Origin: a virus
Direction: 5' to 3' (one strand)
Virus record (IMG/VR): IMGVR_UViG_3300035698_001666
Coordinates: 1-22,293 of that record
DNA length: 22,293 nt
The translations under genes were made by a program, and so were the position numbers. The notes beneath the pieces are model-generated. The model saw only the letters and a list, made by a program, of their open reading frames with translations, was not told the DNA's origin and did not search any database. Shown here piece by piece: positions 10,588 to 14,581 of this stretch. How positions within the stretch are numbered: position 1 is the first letter of the stretch; each line of letters opens with the position of its first letter.

Positions 10588-11845
10588 AACCAACACCTCC
10601 AAAAGCGGCTCGCTTCATTGTGGTTCCTAGATTAAAGTTCTTACTCTTGCTTTTACTCGAAACACTTTCAACATTATTCCCATTGTCTTTAACATTCACA
10701 TCGACGGATCCATTAAAGGAACTTCCAAGAGAGGTAAATCCTCCGGATAACATATTTTTCAAACCAATGAGCTTATCCAGAGCGCCGTCTTTAAATCCAG
10801 CCATAAGCTCTTTCCAATTTTTCATAAGATAATAAACAGAAGCCGACAGCGCAGCAACGGCCGCCGCTACAAGTAAGAACGGTCCAGCGACACCAGCCAC
10901 AGCAACAGCGAGGAAGTGAAAGATTATTAACAAGGGCGCCAGCGCAGCGCCAATTGCAAGAATTTGAACGACCAACACTTTGTTTTTAGGTGAAAGTCTT
11001 TGCATAACACCATCAAGCTTTTTTATGAGCCCAACTAAAGGAACTAAGGCGTTATAAACGATCGGACCATACTCCTCGAGAGTGTCGCCTAAATCGTTTA
11101 CCAATTGTTTTAATCCACCGGCGCCAACTTGAGCCGCAGCCTTCGCAGCTCCTCCATAAAGCGTTTCGAGTTCTGTCAAAATAACAGACTGCGCTTCAAA
11201 CAATCTTCCAGACTTGGCCAGGCCTTTGATTGTCGCTTTTTGAGTTTCGTTAAAGATAACCCCCATCCGACCAAGAGCGCCAAGCTGTCCAACGGGATCC
11301 GCTAACACTTTACCGAGTTGCAATGTCGTAGAGGTTAAGTCAACCATGCCACCTCTTGAGGCCGCCAACTTCGCCGCCAAATCTACGGAGGCAATCGCAG
11401 CACGATCGAAATTACTTTCTGTTATTTGTGTAAAAGTTAACAACTGAGCGATTACCCCAGCAAGAACTTTGTCATCTCCAAATATCGTATCGTTTTGAAT
11501 GCCTCTTGCTAGTGCTTGTAGTTCAACAAGTGATTTCTTAGCAACACCACCTGTAGATTCAATACCTAGCCTTACCTGTTCGACAGCCTGTGCTTGCTCA
11601 TCCCATACTTTAATAGCCAGAGCGCCAAGACCAAGAATAGGAAGCGTTAATCGAGTTGATAGAGATTTTCCAGTTGCATACGCTTGTTTAGAAACACCTT
11701 TCATGCTTTTGGTGAATTTCTTTAATGCGATGGCTGTTTTTTTAACGTTGTTTTTAAATGCGGTCGTTGACTTAGCAATCTTTCTCAATGCTGGTCGATA
11801 CCTGTCAATAATTTCGTATTTATACTGTACACTGAAATCACTCAT
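10574..11845 (-). CDS. Tail length tape measure protein
   Basis: This 423-residue, Ala/Lys-rich, mostly helical protein lies between the tail chaperone and the gpN-like gene, where the tape measure is expected. The N-terminus is basic and coiled-coil-like (KKTAIALKKFTKSMKGVSK). The middle has the tape-measure-type core 'ALARGIQNDTIFGDDKVLAGV' and 'LGALGRMGVIF'. A strongly hydrophobic stretch at residues about 288-340 (VLVVQILAIGAALAPLLII onward) fits the membrane-interacting segments of these proteins. It is short for the class. By the usual rule of about 0.15 nm per residue, a tail of roughly 60-65 nm is implied (an estimate). Its ATG overlaps the stop of the frameshift extension as ATGA. 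Confidence 0.9.
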   Translation of the reverse strand: MSDFSVQYKYEIIDRYRPALRKIAKSTTAFKNNVKKTAIALKKFTKSMKGVSKQAYATGKSLSTRLTLPILGLGALAIKVWDEQAQAVEQVRLGIESTGGVAKKSLVELQALARGIQNDTIFGDDKVLAGVIAQLLTFTQITESNFDRAAIASVDLAAKLAASRGGMVDLTSTTLQLGKVLADPVGQLGALGRMGVIFNETQKATIKGLAKSGRLFEAQSVILTELETLYGGAAKAAAQVGAGGLKQLVNDLGDTLEEYGPIVYNALVPLVGLIKKLDGVMQRLSPKNKVLVVQILAIGAALAPLLIIFHFLAVAVAGVAGPFLLVAAAVAALSASVYYLMKNWKELMAGFKDGALDKLIGLKNMLSGGFTSLGSSFNGSVDVNVKDNGNNVESVSSKSKSKNFNLGTTMKRAAFGGVGYATG

Positions 11846-12509
11846 TTAATTTTCCCCATTTCTTTTCTCTCTTCATTCGAGATCCTTGTGGCCACTTCTC
11901 CCAACTCCATGAGATCCATAATGCCTAAATCTTCGCAATACTCAAAACTTAATCCACCTTCAAAAAACTTTACCAGCTTCCCAATGAGATACATTCTATC
12001 AAGTTTTAAGTCCCTTAATTTACTTGGGAAGCTGTAATAAAATTTTCAATGTAGCCTCCGAGTAAAGCCTTCGTATCTCTATAATCCATGTCGTCATACA
12101 TAACTTTTGTAAGACGGATCCGATCATTGGCAACACACATCGGCTTGTCATGACTTCCGCTTGTTAAGATATTTCTTAAAGCAAAGAAACATGCTTCGAT
12201 GTCACCATTACCACTCAAAAGAACAGACGTAATTGATTCGCCCGGGTCTTGCTTTGACTCTTTATCTGGAGTCTCCCGATCGTCTGACATGATTTTGTCT
12301 AGCCCTTCTTGACCAAGCCCATCACTAAGAGCCGTCAATGTTCTGAGCCTTGCCTTTTCGAATTCCTGATCAAGAGTTGATAGATGTTTGATCATTGCAT
12401 TCGATGGCGCCCTGATCGTTAATTTTTCGGCCGTTACTAGTTCGCCACCGTCAGCCACCTGAAGTTGTTTCTTCAGAACGTATTCAAATTCGGATTCGAG
12501 CTTTTCCAT
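11842..12509 (-). CDS. Tail assembly chaperone, predicted -1 frameshift fusion product (gpG-T/gp41-42 type)
   Basis: If ribosomes slip back one base at 12039-12045, the first 157 codons of the chaperone join a -1 frame of 67 codons that ends with TGA at 11844-11842. The fusion is about 222 residues. In the extension, 'LDRMYLIGKLVKFFEGG' and 'YCEDLGIMDLMELGEVAT' are helical and resemble the short second-frame domain that recruits the tape measure protein in lambda G-T, P2 E-E' and Mu-like systems. The -1 frame opens exactly at the slippery site, because TGA stands just before it. Its stop overlaps the tape measure start as ATGA, the coupling seen throughout this operon. No independent ribosome binding site explains the extension. 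Confidence 0.8.
11974..12059 (-). promoter_or_regulatory. Programmed -1 ribosomal frameshift signal
   Basis: Three elements are visible on the minus strand. GGAGG at 12059-12055 lies 9 nt before the heptamer, like the stimulatory SD-like site of dnaX. The slippery heptamer A AAT TTT at 12045-12039 is in the correct zero-frame phase (gaa aat ttt att). A perfect 11-bp inverted repeat, CAGCTTCCCAA at 12034-12024 and TTGGGAAGCTG at 11984-11974, starts 4 nt after the heptamer and encloses a 39-nt loop. The last could be a stimulatory stem or part of a larger fold. Confidence 0.82.
12015..12509 (-). CDS. Tail assembly chaperone, zero-frame product (gp41/gpG-like)
   Basis: This 164-residue protein sits between the tube and tape measure genes, the invariable place of tail assembly chaperones. 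It starts MEKLESEFEYVLKK and carries a beta segment 'AEKLTIRAPSNAMIKHLSTL' plus helices ('IEACFFALRNILTSG'), as in Mu gp41-type and gpE-type proteins. In the family this product coats the tape measure protein before tube polymerisation. Near the 3' end its codons run through an A AAT TTT heptamer, so a fraction of ribosomes should pass into the -1 frame. GGGAGG lies about 10 nt upstream of the ATG. Confidence 0.82.
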   Translation of the reverse strand: MEKLESEFEYVLKKQLQVADGGELVTAEKLTIRAPSNAMIKHLSTLDQEFEKARLRTLTALSDGLGQEGLDKIMSDDRETPDKESKQDPGESITSVLLSGNGDIEACFFALRNILTSGSHDKPMCVANDRIRLTKVMYDDMDYRDTKALLGGYIENFITASQVN

Positions 12510-12549: not shown

Positions 12550-12939
12550 TTATCTTCCTGCATTACCTTTGAACTCTAATTCGATCTCACCTTCACTTGC
12601 GAAATTAATATCCGGATCGTTCGTGAGAGCGGCTTGGTTAATTACAATACTGTAATCGTTATCGCTTATAGCAATATAATTACTGTTCTTATTAGCCTTC
12701 AAAACTTTTATCGCCTCGATATTTTCTTTCGTTGTGTAAACCGAGTATCGCACTTCTGAAAACTTACTATCTAATTTTTCAAAGTGTATAAGTTCTACAA
12801 CGCCATTCCCCAGAGATTGAGGAAGCATTTCACTTTCCCCTTGACCGAGCTTTACGGAAAGGGAGTTCGGAACGGTTGCGAATACCTCATTGTTAACTCG
12901 TACAGTTGGAGCCGATAGGCCTCTTTGATTGTTTGGCAT
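12550..12939 (-). CDS. Tail tube protein (Mu gpM-like)
   Basis: This 129-residue protein immediately follows the sheath gene and matches the contractile tail tube family of Mu and relatives: 'VRVNNEVFATVPNSLSVKLG' near the start, 'LIHFEKLDSKFSEVRYSVYTTKEN' in the middle (the region with conserved 'K..vs.v.f.v..t'), and a final strand 'EGEIELEFKGNAGR'. It polymerises into the inner tail tube through which DNA passes. AAAGGAG lies about 10 nt upstream of the ATG. Length and gene order are normal for the family. Confidence 0.87.
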   Translation of the reverse strand: MPNNQRGLSAPTVRVNNEVFATVPNSLSVKLGQGESEMLPQSLGNGVVELIHFEKLDSKFSEVRYSVYTTKENIEAIKVLKANKNSNYIAISDNDYSIVINQAALTNDPDINFASEGEIELEFKGNAGR

Positions 12940-12973: not shown

Positions 12974-14581
12974 TTAATTGATTGTAAAAGTTGTCTTCAG
13001 GTTCGCAAGGATCGTTCTCAATTGCACAACGATCGGAAAGTCTGAATTTGCAGTGACTTTTCCTAGAACCATATCGATCGCAATCGTTAAATGCTCAACA
13101 AAGAAAGCCGTCGCTTCTGCACTTTTTGGAACAATTGCTACATCAGCTAAATCAAGATAATACTTCTTAAGCTGATCCTTGAATCCTTGAGCATTGATCA
13201 TTGAGTAACCCTGAACCATGTCACCCTCTGTCAATCGAGTTTGTGCAAAATCGACTTTCATGTTATTGAAGAAATATTCCGCAGCAACACTCATCGTGTC
13301 GACGGTGTTCAATCGCTTCCAAGTCGTATTCACATTCCCAGAAGGATCCGTTTTAAATGTTGTGTTAATCGTGCTCATAATGATCGTGTTTCCGGCTGTG
13401 TTGTTCCCGATAACCGATCCACCCTTCGCCTCGATCTGAAGAACTTCTGCTTTTGTAAATCCCTTTCCTGCATCCATAGGAGACACGCCGTACATCGGAG
13501 TATTGAAGTAAGGTAATGTACTGATATGTTTTCCCCCTTGCCCGTCACTAAATCCACGAACGGCCGCTGGCGTGATGCTAACGATATTAGCTTCCTCTGT
13601 TAATCGCAAAGCTCTGAGAGCTGCAAATTTTGCCGCAACAACTGTCGTTTGCTCTAACAAAGCTGGTCCCTTGTGCATGTCTTCGGTAAGAGTTTTAGTG
13701 AAAAAATGCGTTAGGTTCTCTGAATTAAGGAGGTCAAGAGCTGTTTTTGCGTTCGCATATGTGTCTGTTTTACAAACACACGCAACACCATCTAGAATAT
13801 CATTATCAACCGTGAATCGACTGTCTAGAAAGTTAGTGGCAGAGAAAGCAATTCCATACTCAGAAGGATGAACAATCGTTTGATAACGTTCGCCATCAAG
13901 TAGGGCTGAAAGATCCGGCAACGTTGCATCATTCGCACCACTCGCAAACCCTGTGATCGTAAACTCAACATTTCCGAGAACATGATCGCTTCCGTTCAGA
14001 GTCAATCCTTTGATCTTAATTCCAAATGAGTTCGCCACCGTACCGCCATTCTTGGCCGTTAAAGTGATCGTGCTTGTGGATCGAGTAGCAACAACAGGAA
14101 GATCCGTCAAAGCATTAAGAGCATCGACAACAGCTTGCGCTAGTCCCGTGTCGAGAGCGGCTCCAACAGCAATCGAAAGCTTAACTGTGTAATTGAATTG
14201 AGAAGCAACAGAGATATAAACGTCTCCAGCAACAGTCGCCGCATTTGTGGATCCACCTACCTCGGCGATCGCAATCGTTCCAGTTGCCTTAACAGCGCTT
14301 CCACTATCCGACAAAGGAATTACGTCAACTCTGGGAACTTTAGATGATCCGGAACGTTCAAACACGTCAAAAATACCATTCAAAGTGTTAGCTATTTGAG
14401 AACCATTGTTAAAAATAGATCCGATTTCATCTTTAGAGACATCGATCCTTAAGGCTCCGGGGATTGCCGTTGCTCCAGAGGTAATAAGTTGATCCACTAC
14501 AAGAATTTTTTGTGAGTCGAGTCCTGCTGGGAGTGAAGCTCGTAATTTATTGACCGTTATGTCTGGTTTTGAAATTTCCAT
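12974..14581 (-). CDS. Contractile tail sheath protein (Mu gpL-like)
   Basis: This 535-residue protein is the sheath subunit that defines the phage as a myovirus. The N-terminus has 'QKILVVDQLITSGATAIPG'. An inserted domain follows ('DVYISVASQFNYTVKLSIAVG' through 'LPVVATRSTSTITLTAKNGGT' and 'NSFGIKIKG'), typical of Mu-type sheaths. The core has 'GFASGANDATLPDLSALLDGERYQTIVHPSEY', and the C-terminal domain has 'DTMSVAAEYFFNNMKVDFAQ' and 'GKVTANSDFPIVVQLRTILANL'. AAGGAG precedes the ATG. Nothing appears truncated. Confidence 0.93.
   Translation of the reverse strand: MEISKPDITVNKLRASLPAGLDSQKILVVDQLITSGATAIPGALRIDVSKDEIGSIFNNGSQIANTLNGIFDVFERSGSSKVPRVDVIPLSDSGSAVKATGTIAIAEVGGSTNAATVAGDVYISVASQFNYTVKLSIAVGAALDTGLAQAVVDALNALTDLPVVATRSTSTITLTAKNGGTVANSFGIKIKGLTLNGSDHVLGNVEFTITGFASGANDATLPDLSALLDGERYQTIVHPSEYGIAFSATNFLDSRFTVDNDILDGVACVCKTDTYANAKTALDLLNSENLTHFFTKTLTEDMHKGPALLEQTTVVAAKFAALRALRLTEEANIVSITPAAVRGFSDGQGGKHISTLPYFNTPMYGVSPMDAGKGFTKAEVLQIEAKGGSVIGNNTAGNTIIMSTINTTFKTDPSGNVNTTWKRLNTVDTMSVAAEYFFNNMKVDFAQTRLTEGDMVQGYSMINAQGFKDQLKKYYLDLADVAIVPKSAEATAFFVEHLTIAIDMVLGKVTANSDFPIVVQLRTILANLKTTFTIN

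Follow-up and report, generated by a model that had tools for sequence, protein, structure and literature searches.

A viral contig from IMG/VR, analyzed here over its full 22,293 nucleotides (referred to as the window), carries on its minus strand a Mu-type contractile-tail module in which a 164-aa open reading frame (ORF) overlaps a second frame that runs to the start of the tape measure gene. This locus raises the question of whether ribosomes are programmed to pass from the first frame to the second and, if so, which sequence elements promote the event. An earlier note had proposed a complete −1 frameshift signal in a tail chaperone gene, comprising a slippery heptamer with a Shine-Dalgarno (SD)-like element upstream and a stem downstream. 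Based on comparisons with related loci, we conclude that the window very probably encodes a tail assembly chaperone from a contractile-tailed phage of the Mu type, that a −1 slip on A AAT TTT would yield a fusion protein, and that stimulators would raise the rate of this slip. A −1 shift in a tail chaperone gene is itself known and is a textbook case for tailed phages.

Layout of the putative frameshift site and its tail module

The genes on the minus strand follow the order sheath, tube, 164-aa ORF, and tape measure, and next come genes similar to N (DNA_circ_N), P, gp46, gp47 (Baseplate_J), and gp48. Gene order across the tail module of phage Mu is alike (sheath-tube-chaperone-tape measure-N-P-46-47-48). 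The ORF pair lies directly 5′ of the tape measure gene and 3′ of the tube gene, which is the placement of tail chaperones. The AlphaFold2 model of the 164-aa protein (pLDDT 92) consists of a beta hairpin followed by helices. When this model was compared with viral protein models, a Rheinheimera phage tail assembly chaperone ranked third (E 5e-3, probability 0.98) behind two unnamed or uncharacterised viral proteins, and Mu FS-gp41 was a weak match; the corresponding search of the PDB returned nothing meaningful. Within the family described below, a single member matches Phage_TAC_7 in its chaperone part (E 0.004), the Pfam families weakly matched by single members being PF10109 and PF06528, and profiles of Mu-type chaperones match weakly. 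From its position, its fold, and these weak profile similarities, the 164-aa ORF is predicted to be a tail assembly chaperone.

The features of the site are collected in the table. GGAGG, A AAT TTT, and the inverted repeat are all present at the coordinates and in the order given by the earlier note. Its description of the stem (11 bp, perfectly paired, with a 4-nt spacer and a 39-nt loop) and of the −1 frame (TGA before the heptamer, 67 open codons, ATGA overlap) also proved exact.

Features of the putative frameshift site and neighboring tail genes, listed 5′ to 3′ along the minus strand
Feature	Position	Strand	Basis or remark
Tail sheath protein	12974..14581	-	PHROG 165 tail sheath, E 5e-32
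Tail tube protein	12550..12939	-	Position; weak PF10618 Tail_tube; homologs in L017, L084, L088
Zero-frame ORF, predicted tail assembly chaperone, 164 aa	12015..12509	-	Between tail tube and tape measure; AlphaFold2 fold; stop TAA 12017-12015
SD-like GGAGG, 9 nt 5′ of heptamer	12055..12059	-	Anti-SD duplex energy -9.5 kcal/mol
TGA closing −1 frame directly before heptamer	12046..12048	-	Sequence
Slippery heptamer A AAT TTT, in phase	12039..12045	-	AAT codon 156 = 12044-12042; TTT codon 157 = 12041-12039
−1 frame extension, 67 codons then TGA 11844-11842	11842..12045	-	Homologous to −1 ORF of L017 and other family loci
5′ stem arm, CAGCTTCCCAA, 4 nt past heptamer	12024..12034	-	11 bp, perfect complement to 3′ arm; 39-nt loop
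3′ stem arm	11974..11984	-	Register also used by L152 and L136, whose changes are compensatory
Tape measure protein, 423 aa	10574..11845	-	PHROG 27166, E 4e-40; start overlaps extension end (ATGA)

Because the TGA before the heptamer closes the −1 frame, a slip is confined to the 28 nt up to the zero-frame stop. This permitted slip window, which runs from the −1 opening to the zero-frame stop, narrows to ~10 nt in one relative (L153), and the site always falls inside it. The ATGA overlap at the far end is formed by the TGA of the extension and the tape measure ATG at 11845-11843, and the predicted fusion would be 157 + 65 = 222 aa long. The stem has a calculated energy of −16.5 kcal/mol, with its first nucleotide at position 5 after the heptamer, and the RNA downstream of the heptamer folds with z of about −2.5 to −3.1 relative to shuffles. 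This stem is the sole uninterrupted 11-bp inverted repeat with a loop of less than 100 nt found in the 22-kb window, where the remaining three reported inverted repeats are 78-92% complementary.

Several observations concern other genes of the window. The tape measure protein is short; by the usual rule of 1.5 angstrom of tail length per tape-measure residue, the tail would also be short, at roughly 60 nm. The homolog of gene N (10602-9404, minus strand) occupies two frames, a 76-aa start and a 339-aa rest, with a junction at about 10440-10420 where a slippery heptamer is not apparent. The homologs in L017 (395 aa) and L084 (390 aa) are unsplit, and the break in the window is likely a one-base change or a contig error. 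A 451-aa ORF (20937-19582, minus strand) combines a ClpP-type protease domain (PF00574, E 2e-43) with a prohead protease S78 domain (PF04586, E 4e-28) on its C-terminal side, so that two different phage protease types are joined in one fused gene. A probable tail fibre of 1083 aa (3576-325, minus strand), for which Pfam gave no match, contains a series of repeats, each ~22 residues long and with the pattern E(I/M)DTEAELEALLTDVT, at a 66-bp period.

Relatives and the conservation of frame, heptamer, and extension

When the chaperone was compared directly with phage records, viral contigs, and genome contigs, nothing matched, and scans of the window proteins against PHROG and Pfam (the latter even at E 10) found no family for the chaperone or the extension. 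Relatives were reached only via alignments of the sheath and tape measure proteins. The initial alignment of the sheath, made with remote Mu-type phages, had too much divergence to serve as a search query. An alignment of the tape measure with those of Flavobacterium and Rhodobacter phages led to 80 viral loci, among which L017, L084, and L087/L088/L090 carry homologs of the chaperone and, in an overlapping frame, of the extension (L numbers denote individual loci). A sheath alignment built from these loci then yielded 80 loci, including 79 new entries. When six-frame ORFs were searched with iterated profiles, the chaperone was detected at 81 loci, of which 76 also have the extension. In L109, L146, L157, L166, and L182 the chaperone is present without an extension match, and some of these loci end near the gene. 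Loci that differ in the region, a few of them only slightly, form the non-redundant set of 62 used below; the heptamer was never used to find any of them. About 890 bacterial genomes from three phyla gave no convincing case of a prophage copy.

The earlier note had proposed that homologous loci be examined for an intact −1 frame and a conserved heptamer, and both were found. The extension ORF lies in the −1 frame of the chaperone ORF at all 62 loci. This result bears on another explanation, namely that the second frame reflects an indel introduced during sequencing or assembly, or a gene in decay. Such an explanation could appeal to the apparent frame break in gene N of the same contig, but it is refuted by the same −1 relation in 62 non-redundant loci, and we give it almost no credence.

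The heptamer AAATTTT occupies the codon pair homologous to Asn156-Phe157 of the window, as placed by profile alignment, in 42 of the 62 loci. Three loci have AAATTTC, TTTTTTT, or TTTTTTC at this codon pair, and ten have T TTT TTG, T TTT TTA, or T TTT TTT one codon 3′ of it. Six loci (L107, L126, L136, L156, L160, and L174) lack a canonical heptamer and retain T TTT. As a background, the chaperone ORFs upstream of the site contain an in-frame X_XXY_YYZ at 63 of 8188 codon positions and AAATTTT at one of them. The heptamer is kept against codon usage in GC-rich members: among the 14 loci above 50% GC, Asn is encoded by AAT in 6/34 cases elsewhere versus 9/9 at the site, and Phe by TTT in 16/72 cases elsewhere versus 14/14 at the site.

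Some individual sites deserve mention. Several of the six loci that have no X_XXY_YYZ have strong downstream stems. L156 carries G GTT TTT, which is arterivirus-like, and the −1 codon that lies over the P site in both L160 and L174 is TGA. The site of L176 is odd, with T TTC CCA and C CCA AAG nearby. This locus (IMGVR_UViG_2515154119_000001) has an identifier that resembles that of an isolate genome rather than a metagenome, and it may offer a culturable entry point to the family.

A run of this kind might also act at the level of transcription, with RNA polymerase slipping at AAAATTTT to produce mRNAs of altered length. The run is A-T rich, and some family members have 6-9 consecutive T residues. 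Against this proposal, the window has just four A residues and four T residues in a row, the codon phase of the heptamer is conserved even though a polymerase has no need of it, and the stems lie at ribosome-entry distance. We therefore regard polymerase slippage as highly implausible.

The extension itself was compared across the family. Taken alone, it matches that of L017 with 40-41% identity (E 1e-12), and across 50 aligned loci its profile is conserved. It is predicted with high confidence to be helical past its first ~15 residues, and the extension of one family member matches Phage_P2_GpE (E 8e-4). Among nine independent pairs of relatives, nucleotide differences fall on the three −1-frame codon positions in the ratio 177/124/270 (270/571 at the third), a bias slightly favored by the fact that the alignments were made at the protein level. 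Judged by these sequence comparisons, the extension is a real, conserved protein domain.

Such a domain could in principle be translated separately from the chaperone, by re-initiation after the chaperone stop at an internal ATG (11994-11992). In the window this ATG is in frame, and AAGGGA lies 16 nt upstream. Across the family, however, a separate start codon for the extension is not conserved: before its conserved F.EGG motif, 39 of the 62 loci have no ATG and 29 have no ATG, GTG, or TTG, with L017, L106, L152, L136, and L130 among the loci counted. Re-initiation would also leave the conservation of the heptamer against codon bias without a reason. It is thus a very improbable source of the extension, and a −1 frameshift remains our preferred reading.

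The downstream stem and the upstream SD-like stretch

Folding downstream of the site was compared with that of shuffled sequences. In the 80 nt past the site, the family mean z is −1.09 (−3.1 in the window), compared to −0.2 to −0.5 in other stretches. Stems start 6-10 nt past the heptamer at 30% of locus-positions versus 3.7% in shuffles, an approximately eightfold enrichment that forms the single peak within 60 nt on either side of the site. Likewise, a stem of −4 kcal/mol or lower that starts 3-10 nt past the site is found in 41 of the 62 loci, versus 12 and 18 in control stretches. A clear stem is absent in about a third of the family, and L106, the closest relative of the window, has only a weak local hairpin (z 0.1).

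Many relatives (for example, L111, L137, L160, and L167) form a short local hairpin, and a few (L152 and L136) form a longer-range stem like that of the window. The stem of L152 pairs the same columns as that of the window (p+q=17), with the exchanges C-G/T-A, G-C/T-A, T-A/C-G, C-G/G-C, and A-T/G-C. Over all loci, a permutation test for covariation in the register of the window gave only marginal values (P 0.06 in one register and 0.045 in the adjacent one), because the 5′ arm has another pairing partner in most relatives. Therefore, we do not claim a conserved stem sequence, and the register is not general. The position of the stem is kept, whereas its sequence and exact partner turn over in most relatives. 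The covarying stem for which the earlier note had proposed to compare homologs thus exists in two relatives, which share the register and carry compensatory changes, but most of the family differs in both sequence and pairing partner.

The upstream element is likewise clearer in the family than in the window. For the window GGAGG, 27% of synonymous shuffles are equally good, and the motif is absent in L017. Regardless, the anti-SD pairing energy peaks just 5′ of the site across the family, and SD-likeness is above the synonymous-shuffle expectation in 48 of the 62 loci (Wilcoxon P 4e-5, a value that ignores relatedness among the loci). Hence, the GGAGG of the window is unremarkable once the encoded protein sequence is taken into account, and SD-likeness at the site is a significant family trend. 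The earlier note had likened the combination of SD and stem to that of dnaX; the stem does recur at a similar distance and the SD is a family trend, but GGAGG taken alone is no better than its amino acids predict.

These observations also frame a further alternative, in which the heptamer alone sets the low shift rate that tail assembly needs and the stem and SD-like stretch add little. According to a review (PMC5009743), some tailed phages apparently shift with no stimulatory signal; Gly-Gly codons largely explain the GGAGG of the window, and the third of the family without a clear stem fits this proposal. Moreover, the RNA past the lambda site, examined as a control, folds with z −3.1, and this value together with the review just cited means that folding alone is no proof of stimulation. 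The proposal does not account for the enrichment of stem starts at exactly 6-10 nt and nowhere else nearby, for a peak of SD-likeness at the site that exceeds synonymous expectation, or for the compensatory changes between the window and L152. We therefore consider it rather unlikely and favor a slip whose rate is raised by its flanking elements.

Known frameshift systems and implications for the family

Frameshifted tail chaperones are widespread; those of lambda and P2 shift by −1 and that of Mu by −2 (PMC5009743; PMC4378225). Thus, the earlier note was right to cite lambda G-T and P2 E-E′ as −1 precedents, but its third example, Mu-like phages, calls for a correction in that Mu itself does not belong with them. 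Mu gp41/FS-gp41 shows a weak fold match to the window chaperone, and the family extension profile weakly matches the Mu extension, but all 62 family loci show the −1 relation. The likeness to P2 E/E+E′ extends to the contractile tail, the position between tube and tape measure, a −1 shift (predicted in the window) close to where the first ORF ends, and an extension that overlaps the tape measure start. The P2 shift site is T TTT TTG, which some relatives of the window also have, whereas the main heptamer of the family is A AAT TTT. The P2 chaperone also differs in length (91 aa versus 164 aa), and the window chaperone is unrecognisable by sequence, and its family has a recurrent stem at a fixed distance. 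With lambda gpG-gpGT, the window shares two overlapping ORFs between the major tail protein and the tape measure and, as predicted, a −1 shift and a short and a long chaperone. In contrast, lambda uses G GGA AAG, has no detectable sequence relation to the family, and lacks an SD-like element (duplex energy −2.1 versus −9.5 for the window).

Outside of tail genes, an SD stimulator is used by dnaX and by an estimated 56% of IS elements (PMC5009743). The arrangement in Escherichia coli dnaX resembles that of the window in having an SD-like element ~10 nt upstream, a heptamer, and a stem a few nucleotides downstream (PMC3711429, PMC5009743). However, dnaX is another kind of gene, its shift yields the shorter product at near 50% efficiency, and in the window family the SD is a mere trend. 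The heptamer of the window is A AAT TTT and not the A AAA AAG of dnaX, so the signal would work like that of dnaX without being a member of the same class. Tape measure homologs with about 32-44% identity occur in Flavobacterium phage FPSV-S1 (Winoviridae) and Rhodobacter phage RcCronus. Both phages have a −1 extension at the equivalent place, with A AAA AAG and G GGA AAC, respectively, and profile searches did not recover their chaperones as family homologs.

Programmed −1 frameshifting is supported by the −1 relation in 62/62 loci, a heptamer kept against codon bias, a conserved extension, and a recurrent stem. The sequences establish how the ORFs are arranged, that the site and the extension are conserved, and that a stem is placed at a fixed distance. 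We infer from these features that the slip occurs, at some rate, with stimulation by the stem and the SD, and that the proteins function as chaperones. Most ribosomes would end at the TAA of the zero frame and produce the 164-aa chaperone. A minority would pause and slip back by one base on A AAT TTT, where tRNA-Asn would re-pair with AAA and tRNA-Phe with TTT, and would then read the −1 frame to give the 222-aa fusion. The C-terminal domain of this fusion would be the counterpart of P2 E′ or of the T part in lambda. By analogy with lambda, many short copies and few fusion copies would cover the tape measure as the tail is assembled and would bring in tube subunits. The slip rate would be raised by the downstream stem and probably also by the upstream SD-like stretch. 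For comparison, the shifting measured in a GeneTack study amounted to 6-7% in two genes for tail chaperones (PMC3711429).

A broader proposal, to which we assign even chances, is that the window belongs to an uncatalogued, widespread family in which selection keeps a signal of three parts: an SD-like stretch, a slippery site (A AAT TTT, or a substitute displaced by one codon), and a stem of variable sequence at a fixed distance. In this proposal the shift rate would be tuned by the stimulators instead of depending on the slippery site alone, and members without a canonical heptamer would rely on T TTT, perhaps helped by a stem.

What is new here is a family, represented by at least 62 distinct loci, that lacks a Pfam or PHROG entry and is not closely matched by any of the public phage records that were searched. 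Contigs of this type should be annotated with the 222-aa fusion beside the 164-aa protein. Because heptamer identity and position, stem sequence, and SD strength vary while the frame and extension are kept, the family is a natural data set on the evolution of a frameshift signal, and it allows us to ask whether stimulators tune the shifts in tail chaperone genes.
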